64,000 nucleotides of DNA, taken from Klenkia brasiliensis. Lineage in GTDB: Bacteria > Actinomycetota > Actinomycetes > Mycobacteriales > Geodermatophilaceae. Location of the stretch: the NCBI RefSeq assembly GCF_900100695.1, contig NZ_FNCF01000003.1, positions 62,001 through 126,000 of the forward strand, given 5' to 3'. The notes below the pieces were generated by a model. The model searched no databases. It was given only the letters and a program-made list of their open reading frames with translations, and was not told where the DNA came from. This document shows, piece after piece, positions 53,501 through 64,000 of this stretch; the stretch's first letter is position 1; every line of letters starts with the position of its first letter. The position numbers and the translations under genes were made by a program.

Positions 53501-54145
53501 GTGACAGACGCCCCCATGACGGCTGTTCTGATCAGCGGACTGCTCGGCGCGCTGGTCACGCCCTTCCTTGTTCGCCGAGGCCTCGGTCAGCTGACCTGGA
53601 GCCGGCCCCTTCCGCGGTGGCACTCATTGCTCTGCGCTGCCACTGGCTTCGGCTTGGGTTCCGCCGCGGTCGGTCTCACGGCCTCCCGGGAGAACCTCGC
53701 GCTTCTCCCGGCGCTGATCGTGTGGTCCCTGGCCCTCACCGCGATTGCCTGGTGCGACTCGATCGCGCGCCGCATCCCCACCCCGCTGGTGCGCCACGCC
53801 ACGGTGGCTGTTTTCGTCTTGCTGACGGCGGGCGCCGTCGTCGCCAACTCATGGGGAACCTGGGGTGCGGGGCTCGGCGGAGCCCTGCTCATGGCAGGGG
53901 CCCTCATGGCCGCCTGGCGCTATGCCGGGGCCGGCCGCGGCGATGTCCGCCTGGCGGCACTGGGGGGCCTCGGGCTGGGGTTCGCGAGCGCGGTAGGCCT
54001 CATCGCTGGTCTCCTTGCCTGGGCCGTCGTCACCCTCCTGCAGTCGATCCGCGCGGTGGCTCGTGGCGGGTCGCTGAAGACCGAGATCGCTTTGGCCCCG
54101 GGGCTAGCGATCGGACTATTCGTTGCTGCACTGCCGTCGTGGTGA
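53501..54145 (+). CDS. prepilin peptidase (A24, TadV/CpaA-like)
   Basis: A 214-residue membrane protein with about six helices. The two catalytic Asp residues are visible: AIAWCDSIARRIPTPL (first Asp) and AGRGDVRLAALGG (second Asp in G.GD..L). It cleaves leaders of Flp-type pilins and TadE-like pseudopilins. GTG 53501 has AGGA ten bases upstream. It is transcribed away from the Tad operon, so both probably share a regulatory gap at 53294-53500. Confidence 0.88.
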   Translation: MTDAPMTAVLISGLLGALVTPFLVRRGLGQLTWSRPLPRWHSLLCAATGFGLGSAAVGLTASRENLALLPALIVWSLALTAIAWCDSIARRIPTPLVRHATVAVFVLLTAGAVVANSWGTWGAGLGGALLMAGALMAAWRYAGAGRGDVRLAALGGLGLGFASAVGLIAGLLAWAVVTLLQSIRAVARGGSLKTEIALAPGLAIGLFVAALPSW

Positions 54146-54331: not shown

Positions 54332-55246
54332 ATGAGCTCGCTGTCCGCAGCCGACCGAGCAACCTTGTTGTCGTCCTGGATCAAGCCGTCCAGCGACAAC
54401 GAGAAGACCCAGCAAGATTGCGCAGAACGGATGATCGCCGATGCCATCAAGGCGCACCCCGCGTTCTCTGACATCGACATCCGAGTCTTCGCCAAGGGCT
54501 CCTACGCCAACAACACCAACGTCCGGCGCGACAGCGACGTCGACATCGTGGTAGAGAACCGGGATTGCTTTTACTACGAGTTCTTTGGGTGCGATGCACC
54601 GCCCGCCGGGACGATCCCTGGCTACAGCGGCCAGTGGACGCCCGACCTGTGGCGCCGGGAAGTCACCGCCGCGATCGTCAACTACTTCGGCCGCAACGAC
54701 GTCGACACGTCTGGCTCGGTCGCTCTCGCAGTGTCCGAGAGGCCCGGCAGCCGCCCCAGCGCCGACGTGGTGCCCAGTTTTCAATTCCATCGGTACGACA
54801 CGACCGACCGGAGCGTCTGCCACGAAGGCACCAGGGTGTTCAAGAAGGGCTCAAGCAGCCGGTACATCGACAACTGGCCCCAACAGCAACTGAACAACGG
54901 CCGCGCCAAAAATACCGCCACCAGTCGCCGCTACAAGAATTACGCGCGGGCGCTCAAGAACGCCGAGAACTACCTCGTCAAGGCCGGAGCGATGGACGCC
55001 AAGCCCTCCTACCTCATGGAATGCCTCGCCTGGAATGTCCCCAACTCCACACTAAGCACCGGCGACCTCGACGGAGGGTTCCGGTCAACCCTCGTCTGGC
55101 TGTGGGAGCACCTCAACGACCAGTACAAGTACGAAGAGTGGGACGAGCCCAACGGCCTCAAGTACCTGTTCTGCCACGAGCAGAAGTGGACCCGAAAGGA
55201 TGCCCAGGAGATCGTGCTCAAGACCTGGGACTTGTTGGACTACTGA
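54332..55246 (+). CDS. CBASS CD-NTase (cyclic oligonucleotide synthase)
   Basis: A 304-residue nucleotidyltransferase of the SMODS/CD-NTase superfamily. The active-site motif reads AKGSYANNT (Gly56-Ser57), followed by DSDVDIVVE with metal-binding Asp69 and Asp71, and a third acidic residue Asp145 in RPSADVVPSF. The C-terminal helical half is typical of bacterial cGAS-like enzymes. It would make a cyclic nucleotide on phage infection. GGAG lies just before ATG 54332, and the stop abuts the ATG of the Cap15-like effector gene. No ancillary Cap2/Cap3 or HORMA genes are present, so this is a minimal type I system. Confidence 0.9.
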   Translation: MSSLSAADRATLLSSWIKPSSDNEKTQQDCAERMIADAIKAHPAFSDIDIRVFAKGSYANNTNVRRDSDVDIVVENRDCFYYEFFGCDAPPAGTIPGYSGQWTPDLWRREVTAAIVNYFGRNDVDTSGSVALAVSERPGSRPSADVVPSFQFHRYDTTDRSVCHEGTRVFKKGSSSRYIDNWPQQQLNNGRAKNTATSRRYKNYARALKNAENYLVKAGAMDAKPSYLMECLAWNVPNSTLSTGDLDGGFRSTLVWLWEHLNDQYKYEEWDEPNGLKYLFCHEQKWTRKDAQEIVLKTWDLLDY

Positions 55247-55945
55247 ATGAGTACACCTGGTCGGCCAGTTCGGTACGCGGCTACAGCAGTCGGCGCCGCA
55301 TACGCCGTCGCGCTCTACGTCGCCGGCTTTCGGTTCGACGACGGCATCAGGCAGATCCTCGCCTACCTCCCTGCTGCCGCAGCCATCGCAGTGGTCGCCT
55401 TCGACCGCTGGACCTGGAAGTGGCCCGGCGTCCACCGCCTCGTGGGACGACCACGGATCGACGGCACCTGGCTCACCACCCTCACGCCGCACCCCGACAG
55501 CCACATCCCCGAGGGCGGTAACCGGGGACCGATCGACACGGCGGTCATCATCGAGCAGACCTACTGGTCAGTGACCGTCCGCCTGCTCACCGCCGAAAGC
55601 CGATCCATCAGCACCTCGGCATCGATCTACAACCGCTCCGCTCAGCAAGCAGTGCTCGCCTACACATACGCGAACGAACCAGAACAACGACACCGGCCAC
55701 GCAGTCAGCCCCACGCAGGCGCCACCGAGCTCGTTATCACGGGCCGTCAGCCCCAACAGATGAGCGGCACCTACTGGACCGAACGGCTCACCGTCGGAGA
55801 CATGACCATGCACCTGCTCGATCGACGAGCTGATTACCCAACGCTGGCCGCCGTGACCGGTGAAGCGGGTGCGGAGACCAGCGGAAGCCGCCGGAACAAT
55901 CCTGGCGACGCGAGGCACGACCAACGAGCGGGCGATGGGTCCTAA
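55247..55945 (+). CDS. cap15: CBASS effector Cap15 (two-helix membrane anchor plus beta-barrel)
   Basis: A 232-residue protein with two N-terminal membrane helices (about 8-28 and 34-54), then a domain rich in beta strands: GRPRIDGTWLTTLTP, TAVIIEQTYWSVTVRLLT, SRSISTSASIYN, QQMSGTYWTERLTVGDMTMHLL. This is the S-2TM-beta / Cap15 effector design, which senses the cyclic nucleotide through its barrel and disrupts the inner membrane. ATG 55247 follows the CD-NTase stop without a gap. The last 30 residues are polar and probably disordered. Confidence 0.88.
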   Translation: MSTPGRPVRYAATAVGAAYAVALYVAGFRFDDGIRQILAYLPAAAAIAVVAFDRWTWKWPGVHRLVGRPRIDGTWLTTLTPHPDSHIPEGGNRGPIDTAVIIEQTYWSVTVRLLTAESRSISTSASIYNRSAQQAVLAYTYANEPEQRHRPRSQPHAGATELVITGRQPQQMSGTYWTERLTVGDMTMHLLDRRADYPTLAAVTGEAGAETSGSRRNNPGDARHDQRAGDGS

Positions 55946-56072: not shown

Positions 56073-56345
56073 TCAGAACAGGCGGGGGTCACCGTCCTCG
56101 TCGGTGTGGATGACCCGGTCACCCCGCTCCAGTGCATCCAACTCGAGCTCGATGTCTTAGGCGGCCATGTCGGACAGTCGGCTCGGCCCCATCACGAAGA
56201 TGTGGTTCGGGCCGGCGGTGACGCCCACGAATTCCGGGTTCGGTGCCACGACGAAGGCGAGGTTCCAGCCAATCTGCTGCCCCACCTTGCGTGCGCGGTC
56301 GTTCAGCTGGGCGATGTCTTGCGAGTCCGATGCCATGCGTGACAA
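56073..56345 (-). pseudogene. short gene with an in-frame TAA
   Basis: From ATG 56345 the frame reads MSRMASDSQDIAQL through NPEFVGVTAGPNHIFVMG to a TAA at 56157-56159. It continues in the same frame as DIELELDALERGDRVIH with coherent acidic protein character to a TGA at 56073-56075. Together this looks like one 90-residue protein with a single nonsense codon (MAA-stop-DIELEL). I do not recognise the family. Confidence 0.45.
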
Positions 56346-56529
56346 CGAGCATCAGGGTCAAGGGAAACAAGACGCCGGCGGCTTATCGATCACACCGGTG
56401 CGTCACCTCTGCGTCACCTTGATCGGCCGCTTTCGAACAGCGAGACCAGCCCGTCCGCCTGGGTACCGTCCCAGTCGTGAGCGGGGGCCACCGGCCGCGC
56501 GACTGATGACCAAGGGAGATTCACACCAG

Positions 56530-59244
56530 ATGAGCTCGCCCATCGCGCCAGGTGAGGTCGACCGGCTCTCCGACCAAGGGTTGCTTGAAGCTGGCGACTT
56601 CACCGCTCTCGCTGCCCTCGTGCTCCGGGTCGGCGATGCTCCACTTCGGGCGCTAGCGGGCTCATGCGGGGACGCGAACGCCTTCACTTGGTGGTGGGCA
56701 CTGGTCAGCCAGAGCCCTGAGCGCTTCAGCACTGCGGCGCAACTGCCGCCCAGGGTGGACGTGCCGGTCGAGCTCAGAGAGGCAGTCGCTGAGCACGTAC
56801 TTGTGGGGAGAGACCCGCGAGAGCGCCAGTACCCCACCGCACCCGGGACGAGCCGCGGGCCCATCCTCGCCCGCCTGGACAGCACGGCGCCCTGGGTGGT
56901 GCAGCTGGCCCACCACGTCATGGCTGACCCCGCCGTGCGTTCCGCTGAGGTCCTCGACGCCGCACTCACCATCCTCGGTGCTGCTGTCGACCCCGCGGAC
57001 CGCACCACCGTCCTCGACTTCGCCAGAACACGACAGCCACATATGCGGGGTCACTACCTGGTTCGGCTGAGCGGTGACATTGGCGCAGATGAAGCGCGCA
57101 AGATCGTGGATGTCCTGGCTGAAACGCGGTCGAGTGGGGCCGAGCCCGAGCACTGGAAGCCGGTGACCCTGCTGCTTCGGCGGCTTCCATTGGATGTATT
57201 AGCCGCCTTCATCGATAGTCCGTTCACCCAGGGACGTGGGAGGGCGCCATTGCTCGAGGCCGGCCTCATCGGCACGCTCGGAGCAGCCCGACTGCAAGAG
57301 GTGCTCGAACAGCTGACCTCGGTGGAGGTCGTCACTGAGCTCGTCGAACGCGCCGCCCGCGACCTGCCACAGGATCAGCTGGTCGACTTCTCGGTGTGGG
57401 CGCACCACCGTTACCCGGCGTCCTTGTGCTTTGCGCTCCGGCAACGGCTGATCGGTGACCTGTCGGACTCCCATTACTTCACCCGAGGAGAAGAACGCAG
57501 GGCGCAGGCGGTGGAGGGGCTTTGGGCCAGCGGGCTGGCTGGCACCGAAGCTGACGCCATCGCTGACGAGCTCATCGCTGTGACCGATCCTGATGACCTA
57601 GCCACCCGGGCAGCCGACGTCACCACCAGCCGGGCTGCCAGCCAGCTGGGTGCCGCAGCTGCAAAGCTGCTCGCAGCCCAGCACCCTAACGACACCCCAG
57701 GTGGCCGCCAGCTCATCGAGGCTGCCGCCCGGTCGCTGCGAGCGATGACAGTCGACCTCCTAAAGGATTTCGCCGCAGGTCTCGTACGCACCGCCACCGG
57801 CACGCCCGCCGAGGGCCGCCTGAGCGGGCCGCTTGTGGACGCCGTCATCGGGCACCCGGATGCCATCGCCGCCTTCGCCGCCGAAGGTGGGTCGGATGTT
57901 TTGACCCTCCACGCGGCCCGCACCCCGGATCAGGCCGCAGCCGTTCTCCTCTCGGCATCCGCACACCTCAATGCCGCGCAGGCGTGCACTCTGCTGGGGG
58001 TCGCCCCCGCCCTGGATCGGCCGGGGAACTCCCCTAACACGGCGCCCGGCGTCAACTGGACTACGACCAATCCCAGCATCTACCTGCGGCTCCTGGACGC
58101 AGCCGATACCTGGGATGAAGCTACGTTCGGCGTGCTGGGGCAGGCGCTTCGCGCCCTCGACGAGCCCGAGGCCCGTCAGCCATCCACCGAGGTGCTCCTC
58201 AGGGCGCTCTCCCATGGTGAGTCCCGTGGCCTGGCCGACCACCTGGGTGAGGCCACGACCGACCACATCCGGCGGCTGCTCGAACAGCGCAACCCCGAAG
58301 TGCTACGCGCGGCATGCGATTGGGTGCGTCGGCTGGACATCGACGCCGATGGCGCAGACATCGGCCGTGCGCAGCTGGTGCTCGCCGCGGACACGCGCCG
58401 GAACGGCCGCAATGCAGACATCAGCCAGCTGCGCGCAGACTTGGCCCACCGGCATGCTGAGCTCGCGCAAGACCTCACCCTCGAAGCCGGCCAGCGCGTC
58501 GCGCACCTCGAGACTGCCGCGACCCTGGCCGATAATGAAGCCCGCGACGCTGCTGTGGTCTTGGTGGAGTCCCGGACGACGGCCATCCGGCGCGCGGCAG
58601 CGCACGTGCTGGCAGAGACACCCGGCTCACCCGAGGAGCACGCCACCCTCAACATCCTGATCGCAAACGAGGACGACGCCGAGGTGGCCCATCTGCTTCA
58701 GACAGCGCTGCACCGACTGGTCTCCGGCGATGCCGGGGAGGCCCTGCGAAACCTCATGGATCTGCTTGGGCTTCCGACACGGGGCCTGAACGTCGACGTA
58801 CTTATCCCCAATCAAGCGCACCGAGAGCGATTCACCCTATGGGTGGACCGAGCCCGCGCGAGGTCCAGCAACACGGGCGACCCGAGCGCCTTCATCGATG
58901 CGACAATCAACATCGCCGACCAGATGGCCGACCTGGCAGTCGTCGCAGCCTCCGATGCAGGGCAGAACGTCGCACTGCGGCCGGACCAGGTCGAAGGCAT
59001 CCGGGTCAATAACAAGCCTCGTCCAGACGCCGGCGTGCTCGTGACCCAGCAGCAGCGCACCCAGCTGTTCCCATGGTTCTCCTCGGTGGCAGCGCTGCGC
59101 AGCAAGCGCGCCGCGCACCCGTCTCCACTAGGGACCACTACTCCCCTGCACTTCGGTGACGAGGACCAGCTGGTGGCGCGCGGGTTGCTGAAGCAGATCG
59201 CCGAAGGGTGGATCGAAAGCATGTACGCCCACGCTTCGAAGTGA
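56530..59244 (+). CDS. large unrecognised helical-repeat-like protein next to CBASS
   Basis: A 904-residue soluble protein, almost entirely made of short amphipathic helices with Leu/Ala/Asp-rich repeats (for example LRRLPLDVLAAFIDSP, ARLQEVLEQLTSVEVVTELV, EVLRAACDWVRRLDIDADG, AIRRAAAHVLAETPGSPEEH). This suggests an alpha-solenoid of HEAT or ARM type; the AIRRAAAHVL stretch is HEAT-like. The last 80 residues are basic and aromatic (TQLFPWFSSVAALRSKRAAH). I see no enzyme motif. ATG 56530 has AAGGGAGA upstream; the frame before it lacks protein character. Its position between CBASS and other defence-like genes suggests, but does not show, an antiphage role. Confidence 0.75.
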   Translation: MSSPIAPGEVDRLSDQGLLEAGDFTALAALVLRVGDAPLRALAGSCGDANAFTWWWALVSQSPERFSTAAQLPPRVDVPVELREAVAEHVLVGRDPRERQYPTAPGTSRGPILARLDSTAPWVVQLAHHVMADPAVRSAEVLDAALTILGAAVDPADRTTVLDFARTRQPHMRGHYLVRLSGDIGADEARKIVDVLAETRSSGAEPEHWKPVTLLLRRLPLDVLAAFIDSPFTQGRGRAPLLEAGLIGTLGAARLQEVLEQLTSVEVVTELVERAARDLPQDQLVDFSVWAHHRYPASLCFALRQRLIGDLSDSHYFTRGEERRAQAVEGLWASGLAGTEADAIADELIAVTDPDDLATRAADVTTSRAASQLGAAAAKLLAAQHPNDTPGGRQLIEAAARSLRAMTVDLLKDFAAGLVRTATGTPAEGRLSGPLVDAVIGHPDAIAAFAAEGGSDVLTLHAARTPDQAAAVLLSASAHLNAAQACTLLGVAPALDRPGNSPNTAPGVNWTTTNPSIYLRLLDAADTWDEATFGVLGQALRALDEPEARQPSTEVLLRALSHGESRGLADHLGEATTDHIRRLLEQRNPEVLRAACDWVRRLDIDADGADIGRAQLVLAADTRRNGRNADISQLRADLAHRHAELAQDLTLEAGQRVAHLETAATLADNEARDAAVVLVESRTTAIRRAAAHVLAETPGSPEEHATLNILIANEDDAEVAHLLQTALHRLVSGDAGEALRNLMDLLGLPTRGLNVDVLIPNQAHRERFTLWVDRARARSSNTGDPSAFIDATINIADQMADLAVVAASDAGQNVALRPDQVEGIRVNNKPRPDAGVLVTQQQRTQLFPWFSSVAALRSKRAAHPSPLGTTTPLHFGDEDQLVARGLLKQIAEGWIESMYAHASK

Positions 59245-59634
59245 AGACCTGGACCTCGTGAATGCACGCATGGCGCAGTAGAGGCAGTCGACAGCGGAGC
59301 GGACGGCTCGGCTGACGAGGATGGGACTGCCGCTGGAGTAGGCAACAGTTCGTCGATGATGCCGTCCCCTGCCCAGAAGGCCAGCATCAGCTACCCCATG
59401 CCGAGGCACCAAGGGGAGGGCTCGTGATACTGATCTTGATACTGCAAGCAAGGTATGTGGGTGCCGTTCAGCGCATGTAGATGCTGACCCGACAACCCCC
59501 AGCACGCCGAACGTGCAGTTCAAAGCCCAGGTAGGCCCACAGATGCCCTTGCAGCATCGCGAGCTCAAGTCCCCCCTCGGACACCACATCGGCCCGGCGT
59601 TCCTGCAGGTCAGGAGCCCGGGGCGCTTTACTGA
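59245..59634. other. no gene recognised; possible attachment-site region
   Basis: The 390 bp between the large protein and the integrase remnant hold no convincing frame. Being immediately downstream of an integrase C-terminus it is where an attachment site would be expected, and it contains a near-repeat TGATACTGATCTTGATACTG near 59426, but I cannot define an att core. Confidence 0.35.
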
Positions 59635-59958
59635 TCAAGCTGCCGGTGCTCCGTGATCCCAATTGTCGTCAGCTCCAGCCCGTCGGCAAGCGGCGATCAA
59701 CGCCGCGAACCGGTCGGCGGCCTCCTTGCCCATGCCGGGATGCACGTGTTGGTAGACCGTCAAAGTGATCGTCGGGTTGTGTTGGCCGAGACGCTCCGAC
59801 ACGACCTTGACCGGCTCGCCGGCGGCCAAGAGCAGAGTCGCGTGGGTGTGCCGTAGGTCGTGCAGTCGGATGGTCGGCGGGCTGTCCTCCCCCATCGCCT
59901 TCTGCGCCCGCTTGACGTCGGCGACGAATCGGCGTGAGAACCGCTCCGGGCTAATGCG
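59635..59958 (-). pseudogene. tyrosine integrase, C-terminal remnant
   Basis: About 107 residues of a phage-type tyrosine recombinase catalytic domain: PERFSRRFVADVKRAQ, RLHDLRHTHATLLL with the H..R box, ERLGQHNPTITLTVYQHV with the final His region and the nucleophile Tyr. The first Arg box, core-binding and N-terminal domains are missing. Upstream homology ends exactly where the kinase gene's stop codon begins, so a recombination event joined unrelated DNA here. Confidence 0.8.
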
Positions 59959-61225
59959 GAAGGTAATCGGCCAGGTACAACGCGATTAAACGATCCCGCA
60001 CCGACGGGAAGAAGATTGAATTAGGTCCAGGGGATCCGCGCCACAGAACCTCCTCACCAACTTGAACTTCGACATCGTCCGCATCAAAGCCGAGGAGATT
60101 GAACTCAACGAAATTGCTCGGGATCACACCAACAGGGCACAATGCAAGCCGGAGGACCTTGACGGGCGGGTCTTCCATTAGCCTGTCGGGCCCACCACCC
60201 TGTGAAACGTCAAGATCGCGACTCTTCGAGAAAACCCGCGCCGCCTGAATGGTCTGATGAAACATCGCATCAAGACCCCGGACACGACGATTTCTGAGTT
60301 CACTGTTGTCGCGGCTGAGAGCAGCGTCAAAAGCAGCCAGAAGCGCGTCGTCCGCCTCCTCGTCCCCAGTGGACATCTGCACTTCCTTCATCAGGCCAAT
60401 CATCTCGGACGCGGTCTGCGGCCTATTTTCGATCGGCAATACAAACAAGCGGTGAAACAGCATGGACAGCTGTCGCCATCGCGCACCAGCAGCCTTCTGG
60501 TTAAGAATCTGGCGAGTCTGGTGCCGTTCATGCGGACGCAGGCCGCGTTCGTCTATCAGGGTGCGCGGTTCTATTCCGGTCATGGAATACAACATCAGCC
60601 CCGCCACTTGCGTGAGATCACTGACTGGACTGCGCCCGCCTGTCGCGTGCTCGGGGAGTCTAAGAAATCGGTTCCCGACCTCCTCGCCCACCCTCGTCAA
60701 GTCGTCATCATCGGTTCGCTCGCTATTGAACGCCAGCCCGAAGTCCACAATTACGGGGGTACCCACGTCATCATTCCGAAGAAGCACGTTGCTCGGTTTT
60801 AGATCTCGATGGACGATGCCGTTCGAGTGACAGTGATGGAGAGCCCATCCCAACTCGATCGCGAAGGAGAGTGCTTCGTCGAGAGCCAACGTGCCGAGCT
60901 CTGAGACGCGATCACGGAGAGTGGAACCCTGGATGAGTTCTAGCACCAGGAACAGCTCAGTCCTCTTGACCTGCCACGCCTTGGAGTTGTGGTCAAGAAT
61001 CTTCGGAAGACGAGGGTCGTTGAGAGTCTCATAGCTAGAAACCTCGCGATGGAACCGAGCGCGGGCTTTTCGATCATTCTGTCGATTCAGGATCTTCAGG
61101 AATCCAGGCTCGCCGTCTGCACCGGCAACCGCAAACCCGTTGCCCTGACCACCACGGTAGGTGCGCCCCGAAGCTTGGCGCCTCCACCGGACCGACCACG
61201 GGGGCGCAGGTTTCTCATCTGACAC
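59951..61225 (-). CDS. eukaryotic-type Ser/Thr protein kinase with unrecognised C-terminal region
   Basis: A 424-residue protein. The kinase domain shows a Gly-rich loop GGQGNGFAV (about 25-33), the ATP-binding Lys44 in GFLKIL, catalytic HRDLKPSNVLL (129-139), VDFGLAF (150-156) and an activation region ending RLPEHATGGRSPVSDLTQ. Residues 280-424 form a second, unrecognised region (FNLLGFDADDVEVQVGEEVLW). No membrane helix or PASTA repeats are seen, unlike housekeeping actinobacterial PknB. Two hand-counted lines are about 52% G+C against 65-70% nearby, pointing to transfer. GTG 61225 was chosen; the frame stays open to an ATG at 61372. Confidence 0.82.
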   Translation of the reverse strand: MSDEKPAPPWSVRWRRQASGRTYRGGQGNGFAVAGADGEPGFLKILNRQNDRKARARFHREVSSYETLNDPRLPKILDHNSKAWQVKRTELFLVLELIQGSTLRDRVSELGTLALDEALSFAIELGWALHHCHSNGIVHRDLKPSNVLLRNDDVGTPVIVDFGLAFNSERTDDDDLTRVGEEVGNRFLRLPEHATGGRSPVSDLTQVAGLMLYSMTGIEPRTLIDERGLRPHERHQTRQILNQKAAGARWRQLSMLFHRLFVLPIENRPQTASEMIGLMKEVQMSTGDEEADDALLAAFDAALSRDNSELRNRRVRGLDAMFHQTIQAARVFSKSRDLDVSQGGGPDRLMEDPPVKVLRLALCPVGVIPSNFVEFNLLGFDADDVEVQVGEEVLWRGSPGPNSIFFPSVRDRLIALYLADYLPH

Positions 61226-62028
61226 GAGCACCACAGTCCCGTCCGTCTTTCGCTGATCAATGATCGATGAGGTGTCCCGCGCAGGGAGCAAGGATGAGCG
61301 GGCGGCCTCACAGCATGGGATTGGGTTGAGCCCCGATCCTTCTCGCCTTCTGGGTCCGCCAGCACCTTGCACCTAGATTCCGGTAACGCTCAGAATCCCG
61401 GACGGCGGCAGGTCGGCTCCAACGAGCGCAGCACATCGGCGCAAGAAGTTCGCTCAGCACCCGACGCATTGGCGAAGCAGGTGGGAGCCGCAACCAGGAC
61501 GCGGCTGCCCTCGGGACAGGGCCGCAGCCCGCGCTACGTCTTATCCAGCTAACCCGACCTCCTCACGCTGGTCGTTTAAGACCAGGAGGGTGACGACGGC
61601 GATACCGCCCTGGCGGTGGGCCTCAGGAGAAAGGGGATCGCGGGCTCCGACTGGTCCTCCCCCACGGCTGGCATGAACCCACGCTGCGCCGGTGGCCGTG
61701 GTTGCGAGACGACTTGCCGCCGGAGGTCTGGACGCACGCCAATGGCACGACGACGCCGCACACCCGCCCCACCCGGGAGGCCAGGCTGCCGTTCGTCACC
61801 AGCGTTGAGGACCCCGCCCTGCACCTCGCCGACCGCACCGGTTGGGTCGAGGACCTCATGCGCTCGGCTGGCACGCAGGAGAACCTCGACCCGGCCCACC
61901 AGCGGGCACCCGGGCGTGGCAGTGCTGCGGCCAGCGCGTGCTGCGGATCGAGCGATCGCGTCGAGGACTGACCATCGTGGCCGGCATCGACTGGGGGCGC
62001 GACGTCACCTCACGAGACGCCCGAGCCG
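61226..62028. other. degenerate region with remnant coding frames
   Basis: A plus-strand frame open from about 61590 to 61971 has protein-like text (LVLPHGWHEPTLRRWPW, LPPEVWTHANGTTTPHTRP, RLPFVTSVEDPALHLADRTG) but no ATG or GTG start. Similar character then continues in another frame (LRIERSRRGLTIVAGIDWG near 61940-62000), so this is probably a frameshifted remnant. I do not recognise the family. Confidence 0.35.
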
Positions 62029-62313: not shown

Positions 62314-63381
62314 TCATGTGTCGAGGAAGTCCCACTCGCTCCCGAGGACCCAGCGCAGGGCCGAAAGCTTGCCGTTGAGCATCCCGAGCTCGAAATCCGT
62401 GTACGGGCCGAGCTGACCAGGCTCTTTGTAGAGACCCTCAACACGTCGGCGCCCTGGCCCTGCGATCGTGATTAGGCGCTCTAGTTCGGCGTCGTCCCCA
62501 GCGTCCTCAAGCCGGTACTCGTGCTGGAGGGAGCGGTGGTACCAGATGCGGTTGAACAACTCCCCTTCGGCCTCCACGATCTCGTCCAGCCGTCGGGGCT
62601 CCTCCTCGAAGTAGGTCTCCGCGAACAGCTCCTCGATCTCGTCGCCGAAATAATCCAGGAGGACCTGATTGAGGCCATCGACTCCCAGCCCGTAGGTCGA
62701 CCCCTCCGCCGCGAACAAACTGGCGAGGTCGGGATGCGGCCGCCGCGCGTCTCCAACGGGCAGGGAGAAGTCGTCGCTGTTGCTCGTGATGAACGCGTGC
62801 GGCTCCTGGTGCAGGTCGACCCCGCGGACAGTCGTCTTGTAGAGCTCGATGAGCAAGGCGTCGGCGACACTGTTGCGAGAGCGGTGGAACGGCGCCTGCT
62901 TCGAAAGCCCGCGCTCGACCACCCCGCGCTTCTCTTCGTCCCCTGGCTCCAGGGCATGGCCGGCTCGGAGCTGGTCCAGCACCTCGTCGAAGTTGCGGGT
63001 CGTCATCGCTCCAATGAGCGGGACATGACGCGCAAGGTCCGTGATGACCTTGAGGGCCTCTTCTTGGTTCGAGCCGCCATAGTCATCGAGATCTTGCTTG
63101 ATGAGCTTGAACCGCTGGGCGATGCTCGCCGTCATCGACGTCTCAACCCGATCTCGGTTCCGCTCGAACTCGTCGATGACGAGTCGAGGAACGAGTACCT
63201 CGACCTGCCCCTGGTTAGCGAGTACCCGGAGCGCGACGATCCAGCGCTGCCCGTCGCGGCGCTTGCACAGGTCCAGCCAGGTGGAGGTATCAACGAGCAG
63301 ATGGAGCACGACCAGACCGTATGGCGTACCCGGAGGCGTTCCGGTTGGCGCCTCCGTAGGCAGCACCACCGGACGGGGCAT
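62314..63381 (-). CDS. PIN-like domain protein (DUF4935 type)
   Basis: A 355-residue protein with a PIN-like nuclease fold in its first 200 residues: LLVDTSTWLDLCKRRDG (first metal-binding Asp31), VLVPRLVIDEFERNRDRV (acidic helix), RNSVADALLIELY and HAFITSNSDDFS (last acidic residues). This pattern is that of DUF4935 PIN-like proteins, often found beside restriction or other defence genes. The C-terminal 130 residues are acidic and unrecognised. GTG codons around residue 24 (VVLHLLVD) could be the true start. Confidence 0.75.
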   Translation of the reverse strand: MPRPVVLPTEAPTGTPPGTPYGLVVLHLLVDTSTWLDLCKRRDGQRWIVALRVLANQGQVEVLVPRLVIDEFERNRDRVETSMTASIAQRFKLIKQDLDDYGGSNQEEALKVITDLARHVPLIGAMTTRNFDEVLDQLRAGHALEPGDEEKRGVVERGLSKQAPFHRSRNSVADALLIELYKTTVRGVDLHQEPHAFITSNSDDFSLPVGDARRPHPDLASLFAAEGSTYGLGVDGLNQVLLDYFGDEIEELFAETYFEEEPRRLDEIVEAEGELFNRIWYHRSLQHEYRLEDAGDDAELERLITIAGPGRRRVEGLYKEPGQLGPYTDFELGMLNGKLSALRWVLGSEWDFLDT

Positions 63382-63470: not shown

Positions 63471-64000
63471 CTAGGGCCACTCCTCTTTGAACGCCTCGTC
63501 GTCGCGATAGATGAGGCCGACGTCGTACACCCAAAGAAGCCGCACGACCTCATCACCAGGTCTGCCGGGAAGCAGGACGGCGATGCGGTCGTCTGGGCCA
63601 AGCTGATCGAGCGAGCGGTAGTACATGGCCTGGCCCATGCCATGCGCCACCATGACGTCGTCGCGGTGGTTCGCCTTGGCCTCGATGATGACTTGCCGCT
63701 CGCGGTCGTACAGGTCCGCCTCACGCCCGTTCGTGAACAAATGCTTGCGAACGTCTCGGCGGTCTAGCCAGGCGACGTAGTCATTGACCAGGTCGTGTTC
63801 CAGCTCGCGCTCGAGCTCTGCACGCTCCTCGATGGTGAGAGTTGGGTCGGCGAGCACGGCTTCAACATTTTTGAGCAACATCCAGTTGCGGCGGACCACG
63901 CGTAGCCGGTTGCCCTTGAGGTACTTGTGCATTGCCCAGTAGACGTCGCAGTGGCGGTACTGGCCGTTGAGCGCCAGGAAGCACTCATGGATCGAGCGGC
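63471..64000 (-). CDS. nuclease-like protein, C-terminal part (runs off window)
   Basis: The frame is open to the right edge; about 175 C-terminal residues are visible, including HECFLALNGQYRHCDVYWAMH upstream of the internal ATG at 63932. The stretch GREADLYDRERQVIIEAKAN has the E.D...(8 residues)...EAK arrangement of PD-(D/E)XK nuclease cores, followed by MAYYR-like MYYRSL helices. It lies 90 bp upstream of the PIN-like gene on the same strand, so the two may form a pair. The family call is tentative. Confidence 0.6.
   Translation of the reverse strand, partial: RSIHECFLALNGQYRHCDVYWAMHKYLKGNRLRVVRRNWMLLKNVEAVLADPTLTIEERAELERELEHDLVNDYVAWLDRRDVRKHLFTNGREADLYDRERQVIIEAKANHRDDVMVAHGMGQAMYYRSLDQLGPDDRIAVLLPGRPGDEVVRLLWVYDVGLIYRDDEAFKEEWP

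Follow-up and report, generated by a model that had tools for sequence, protein, structure and literature searches.

Gene organization at the locus

The window, a stretch of 64,000 nucleotides from the genome of Klenkia brasiliensis (contig NZ_FNCF01000003.1), carries near its right end a gene for a protein of 904 residues, placed between a CBASS gene pair and an integrase remnant. To the left of CBASS lie what we take to be Tad pilus genes, the last of which is a prepilin-peptidase-like gene at 54145. The features from there onward are as follows.

54332–55246, + strand: CBASS CD-NTase (PADLOC Cyclase, 403.4 bits), a neighbour outside the system proposed below
55247–55945, + strand: CBASS effector Cap15 (Pfam Cap15_CD_rec, 67.4 bits, cut-off 31.2)
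56512–56519, + strand: ribosome-binding-site-like AAGGGAGA, preceding the ATG at 56530
56530–59244, + strand: gene of the 904-residue protein, predicted to consist of a helical solenoid and a HEPN-like C-terminal domain (ORF, composition, relative, dN/dS)
59422–59624, + strand: left copy of a degenerate direct repeat (71%), whose partner at 64529–64732 (L024:1529–1732) is just outside the window
59565–59629, + strand: tRNA-Leu(GAG) 3′ end with downstream flank, an attachment-site remnant (97% over 65 bp to the intact locus on contig C13)
59635–59895, − strand: C-terminal remnant of a tyrosine recombinase (Pfam Phage_integrase, 30.4 bits, cut-off 27.1)
59951–61372, − strand: Ser/Thr kinase of the PD-T4-6 type (PADLOC, 407.5 bits)
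62314–63381, − strand: PIN_12-domain gene (67.2 bits, cut-off 32)
63471–64000, − strand: gene of a 298-residue protein running past the window end (L024:471–1367), with no Pfam match

The Cap15 gene and the gene of the 904-residue protein are separated by 584 bp. On the minus strand of this gap, at about 56160–56337, a stretch reads MASDSQDIAQLNDRARKVGQQIGWNLAFVV..., followed by a stop and then by more protein-like sequence in the same frame; judged from these letters, it is probably a pseudogene fragment. Two further families are matched by the CD-NTase gene (54332–55246), namely NCBIfam DS2_2_antiphage at 131.8 bits (cut-off 350) and phrog_18746 at 105.4 bits; its score for Pfam SMODS is under the cut-off.

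On the right side, the direct repeat brackets the integrase remnant, the PD-T4-6-type kinase gene and the PIN-domain gene, and the tRNA-Leu copy at 59565–59629 sits within the repeat; a search for the tRNA pattern gives a single hit in the window and none in shuffles. Copies of the tRNA-Leu(GAG) 3′ end are scattered (59422–59629, L024:1529–1732, L047 and L030:9689–9708), with the intact tRNA gene on another contig, and by their sequence these copies mark repeated insertion of integrative elements. PD-T4-6 and PD-Lambda-1, a family met again below, reportedly come from an experimental screen. The presumed source of the screen describes DUF4041 and Ser/Thr-kinase systems, and the names PD-T4-6 and PD-Lambda-1 are absent from its text (PMC9519451).

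Reading frame, selection and distribution

The 904 residues are encoded by the ORF 56530–59244 on the plus strand. Upstream of 56530 the same frame stays open, back to an ATG at 56167; the start at ATG 56530 is supported by the ribosome-binding-site-like AAGGGAGA in front of it and by the alignment of the relative described below, which begins at the same Met (MSxPIxPGEV). GC contents at the three codon positions are 0.751/0.506/0.773, and the eight other genes of the region used for comparison have third-position values of 0.635–0.856. When the 11 kb around the gene were shuffled 200 times by mononucleotide, open runs in the three forward frames reached at most 398 codons. Furthermore, comparison with the relative over 901 codons gives dN 0.339 and dS 1.017 (Jukes-Cantor), indicating that the gene is under purifying selection. 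The gene is real, and it is patchy in its distribution.

The initial annotation had described an unrecognised ORF between CBASS and an integrase remnant, and the protein is indeed named by none of the family libraries searched (Pfam, PADLOC, NCBIfam and PHROGs). With the whole protein, Pfam gives SseB alone (E 0.076, 13.6 bits, cut-off 21) and PHROGs one family (E 0.14); at E up to 1, PADLOC-DB 2.0.0 gives no family and NCBIfam nothing, and among PDB sequences there is no match below E 0.2. Matches to SseB, TctC, S100 and adenosine kinase were set aside, being below cut-off or marginal and not common to both known sequences.

In the source family, the gene is present in two of 112 genomes, namely the source genome and G735, which belongs to another genus, and it is found in none of the eight other genomes of the source genus. 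The G735 relative is full-length and 59% identical to the window protein; the best-kept part covers residues 641–904, with 65–66% identity vs 50–62% elsewhere. In wider genome sets, which overlap one another, the window's own copy is the sole accepted match (1/60, 1/348, and 2/394 with one spurious), and queries with the C-terminal part give 5/296 genomes (four spurious) and 10/325 (nine spurious); the larger searches scored only some candidates per genome, down to two, and may miss distant relatives. G735 does not appear among the matches in these wider sets and is taken to lie outside those samples. Three other families gave 0/140, 0/3 and 0/5 genomes, where an empty answer carries no weight. 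Pattern searches of genome contigs returned 22 and 77 matches, none of them confirmed as a relative, and viral contigs, plasmids and phages yielded no convincing relative.

The weak matches of the C-terminal queries (four and nine, E 0.001–0.01) were compared again by tblastn. L034, L039 and L042 give no row with the window protein, and the remaining ones are short, or cross stops, or leave the motif discussed below outside the aligned part. The match in L007 (27% over 92 residues, E 2.1e-4) stops short of the motif. Overlap with the motif region is seen in two cases, L038 (35% over 52 residues, E 1.7e-4) and L034 against the G735 protein (38% over 58 residues, E 0.001); both are judged to be chance, because the frames in question are short and overlap longer open ones with the look of other genes. 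A match in L002 (46% over 59 residues) belongs to the ORF of another protein, presumably the glutamine-synthetase adenylyltransferase GlnE, as which that ORF reads.

Loci of the relative and of congeners

Upstream of the G735 gene, at a distance of about 410 bp, is a probable tyrosine recombinase gene (Phage_integrase, 23.9 bits, cut-off 27.1), and an exact 20-base tRNA-Leu 3′ end (L030:9689–9708) is found 2.8 kb from the gene. Downstream of the gene are a gene matching PD-Lambda-1 (355.6 bits), a match to a type IV restriction enzyme (140.8 bits in the part scanned) and, at 5.7 kb, a SIR2 protein matching the PDC-S65 candidate system (674.7 bits). Both known copies are situated amid genes that match known or candidate defence systems, each close to a tyrosine-recombinase gene or remnant. 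The suggestion of the initial annotation, a large solenoid protein among defence genes that could act as a system by itself, agrees with these neighbours, and a check for housekeeping contexts, which it had proposed as the refuting case, returned one relative and that one in no such context. Downstream of the G735 gene there is also an OGG-like gene (PF21790, L030:15305–15927, − strand) whose halves are in different frames.

When six neighbours in the window (CD-NTase, Cap15, kinase, PIN, integrase remnant and 298-residue protein) were compared by tblastn with the 32 kb that surround the relative, none gave a match. As far as their sequences tell, the two loci indicate elements linked to tRNA-Leu; one mobile element shared by both is not indicated, since their recombinases are not recognisably alike (best E 2.2 at the remnant).

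Congener G001 has a IIG-type restriction-methylase gene (L025:8927–11767, 196.1 bits) next after the Tad-side prepilin-peptidase-like gene, and, going by this one comparison, defence cargo seems to have a hotspot where the Tad locus ends. Two other congeners are of little use here: the contig of G007 ends at this place, and G004 is aligned only over the Tad genes. The right-flank gene (L024:1714–2274) is found in one of seven congeners, and the empty site is thus not seen.

Predicted architecture of the protein

Three parts of the protein are referred to below, all of them predicted from the sequence and from models.

56857–58734, + strand (residues about 110–735): helical region, probably a HEAT/ARM-like solenoid (low-confidence model; HEAT_2)
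58813–59241, + strand (residues 762–904): predicted four-helix HEPN-like domain (AlphaFold2 pLDDT 73.2, pTM 0.69; VIA match to AbiA at Z 7.8)
59098–59118, + strand: candidate active site R857-x5-H863 (RSKRAAH; RQKRAAH in the relative)

A full-length AlphaFold2 model made without relatives has a pLDDT of 47.1 and is all-helical, with about 70% of the residues in helices. The best 19-residue Kyte-Doolittle mean of the protein is 1.36, hence there is no obvious membrane segment, and the earlier description as a large soluble protein of alpha-solenoid character is in line with this low-confidence model. Its best structural matches are importins, catenins and adaptins, which for such a model may say little beyond “solenoid.” In a fragment search, HEAT_2 appears at residues about 660–727 (E 0.0022, 18.7 bits vs a cut-off of 27.7). 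A search for internal repeats gives no clear repeat unit, the best off-diagonal score of 45 being equalled by one of 20 shuffles. Most of the protein is predicted to be helical and probably forms a HEAT/ARM-like solenoid.

For the C-terminal part, the last 169 residues aligned with the G735 relative were modelled with AlphaFold2, giving a four-helix bundle with helices predicted at 762–781, 785–809, 840–862 (kinked at 847) and 877–902, and an insert between helices 2 and 3 that carries a short helix at 818–826. This predicted layout is that of HEPN domains: all-helical, two alpha-hairpins and, frequently, an insert between helices 2 and 3. The initial annotation had described a basic aromatic C-terminus, which the composition does not confirm: residues 736–904 hold 18 K+R and 18 D+E, and the last 69 residues hold 7 K+R, 5 D+E and 6 F/W/Y. 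That the domain lacks a basic character counts against the function favoured below.

Foldseek by itself finds nothing convincing for the C-terminal model (best E 0.42, vinculin tail), and against structures of viral proteins the best E is 0.92. When 973 chains were realigned with VIA and the 50 best rows considered, the top row is AbiA (Z 7.8, 3.5 Å, 119 residues), and 13 of these 50 rows are HEPN entries from several families (8oz7, 3o10, 2hsb, 6tug, 2q00, 8xdj, 4nqf, 8xeh, 7bxo, 8pe3, 6m6u, 6m6w and 8yuf). Most of the other rows, at Z 5.3–7.3, are designed bundles, gp41 constructs, IKK, lyases and vinculin-type bundles; the first three of these groups reach Z 6.5–7.3, and by VIA's own guidance helical bundles under about Z 13 may have merely a common arrangement, so that Z alone does not decide for the HEPN fold. 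No HEPN Pfam model matches the C-terminal pieces at E up to 10, in a search where HMMER drops weak matches and two sequences were available, and the PDB sequence search gives no HEPN match. By its modelled fold, the C-terminal domain may be described as HEPN-like.

The candidate active site and its register

Although the initial annotation had noticed no enzyme motif, that statement is superseded by the candidate HEPN motif R857-x5-H863. According to the available part of the HEPN survey, the motif Rx4-6H is placed at the end of helix 3 (PMC3710099), and in the C-terminal model R857 belongs to the final turns of helix 3, with H863 directly behind the end of that helix, so that the predicted motif falls at this place. 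R857, H863 and the surrounding ALRxKRAAHPS are invariant in both sequences (2/2). The residue following R857 is S or Q, where the HEPN norm is a polar residue, mostly N, D or H; in helix 2, D797 and D801 are invariant without the Ex3[KR] typical of HEPN. Column shuffles produce a conserved Rx4-6H anywhere in the domain in 53% of cases, and in 4.3% they produce one whose arginine falls within the final ten residues of helix 3. Neither these figures nor the register comparison below are fully independent tests, since the motif had been spotted by eye ahead of the structure search. A second conserved Rx4-6H of the full alignment is located at R635, within the solenoid.

The register of the motif was compared with HEPN structures whose catalytic residues are published, by interpolation, since VIA prints end ranges only. 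For AbiA, both ends give an offset of 458, which places R at 580 and H at 586, and the available text on AbiA gives its motif as R581 to H588 (PMC11077055). For HepT (6m6u) the brackets are 90–97 for R and 96–103 for H, and the real residues are R97 and H102, as deduced from Y104 in RX4HXY (PMC7641770). For StCsm6′ (8pe3) they are 323–334 and 329–340, enclosing R331 and H336 (PMC10702470). For EiCsm6 (6tug), in contrast, the brackets 345–365 and 351–371 miss the real R372 and H377 by 6–7 residues (PMC7101355). Thus, the register agrees in three of the four structures compared, out of 13 HEPN rows.

Comparison with known systems

As described in the available parts of the papers cited here, several systems resemble the 904-residue protein in part. 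Tha, a tail-activated HEPN anti-phage protein of Staphylococcus aureus prophages, is activated by phage tail proteins and acts as a non-specific RNase (PMC11087260). Its plan resembles that proposed for the 904-residue protein, with one polypeptide, no recognisable domain in the N-terminal part, and a C-terminal HEPN (Rx4H in Tha, a predicted HEPN-like domain here). It differs in its length of 301 vs 904 residues, in having no long solenoid, and in coming from a different bacterial group; besides, HHpred identified its HEPN, which was modelled with a pLDDT of more than 90. In Lactococcus, AbiA has a helical domain followed by a C-terminal HEPN (Rx6H), an arrangement comparable to the one predicted here, and is the best VIA match; it carries an RT-like polymerase domain, none of which is seen in the 904-residue protein, and no sequence similarity was detected between the two; the HEPN of AbiA is RNA-inactive and serves dimerisation despite its intact motif (PMC11077055). 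Helical domains of the AbiA-related AbiK are treated elsewhere (PMC9508834).

CoCoNuT systems combine HEAT-like helical repeats and HEPN RNases in one defence system; unlike the present gene, they comprise several genes and include McrB-like GTPases and coiled coils, for which the 904-residue protein gives no match (PMC11090510). STAND-TPR-HEPN proteins, PrrC and RloC join a sensor or regulator module to HEPN, yet they contain ATPases or TPRs, and no such family matched the 904-residue protein (PMC3710099). In the accessible portions of the open-licence literature consulted, no single-gene solenoid-HEPN system of this kind was found described.

Proposed function and alternative explanations

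Putting these observations together, we tentatively favour, at a little short of an even chance, a single-gene anti-phage system in which a sensor solenoid of roughly 700 residues is joined to a C-terminal HEPN RNase effector, similar in plan to Tha. From the fold onward we infer the steps, with sensing by the solenoid and release of HEPN drawn by analogy with Tha: the helical solenoid would restrain the C-terminal HEPN domain and bind some phage product; upon binding, two HEPN domains would pair into an RNase site (R857, H863); and the resulting cleavage of RNA would halt the infection, probably along with the cell. The proposed role in defence draws on gene association, which, since two sequences are known, amounts to two loci out of two, and the RNase activity is predicted. 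A more specific form of this proposal appears somewhat doubtful: that an NTPase-free HEAT/ARM-like solenoid receptor of about 700 residues, recognising a phage protein directly, switches on a variant R-[SQ]-K-R-A-A-H HEPN ribonuclease and is carried by tRNA-Leu(GAG)-attaching elements as a new single-gene family. If the proposal is right, a long NTPase-free solenoid would be an added sensor architecture for HEPN effectors, and defence families confined to very few sequenced species would escape the present catalogues (PADLOC, Pfam, NCBIfam and PHROG). A single gene with a predicted catalytic histidine is quick to test.

The C-terminal part allows two other explanations. That the bundle is not HEPN at all, the protein serving the island as a solenoid scaffold or by binding phage and having no nuclease activity, is fairly unlikely in our estimate. 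The generic bundles reaching Z 7.3 vs 7.8 for AbiA, the lack of any sequence match to HEPN, and a motif first noticed by eye all speak for it; they are countered by the layout, by the position of the motif and its register in three of four HEPN structures with published catalytic residues, and by the 13 HEPN entries of several families among the 50 best rows. If the domain does have the HEPN fold, it may still not be an RNase: it could dimerise or bind nucleic acid while the solenoid blocks a phage component, which we consider unlikely. AbiA, the best structural match, is an example of this, since according to the available text it keeps R-x6-H, cut no RNA tested, and dimerises through its HEPN (PMC11077055), and the S or Q after the arginine and the missing Ex3[KR] are atypical too. 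Against it, R857, H863 and ALRxKRAAHPS are invariant at 59% overall identity, as would be expected of an active site, two sequences being few for such a comparison.

The other explanations concern the setting rather than the fold. The gene could be cargo of mobile elements with a non-defence role, e.g., in regulation, stress response or upkeep of the element: a recombinase gene or remnant and tRNA-Leu fragments are found close to each copy, and the defence role is itself derived from the neighbours. Against it, the recognisable genes around both copies mostly match defence families; we consider it quite unlikely. Finally, the protein had been suspected to be a partner of the adjoining CBASS, and its gene does follow Cap15 on the same strand. 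CBASS here is already a two-gene unit of CD-NTase and Cap15, and the minus-strand pseudogene fragment occupies the gap to the present gene; no CBASS gene match is found in the 32 kb around the sole relative, making a partnership unlikely. By the gap and by these 32 kb, there is no sign of an operonic unit with the CD-NTase that relatives would retain, and an accessory role in CBASS is very improbable. Elsewhere in the window, the PIN_12 gene and the adjoining gene of the 298-residue protein possibly form another two-gene system.
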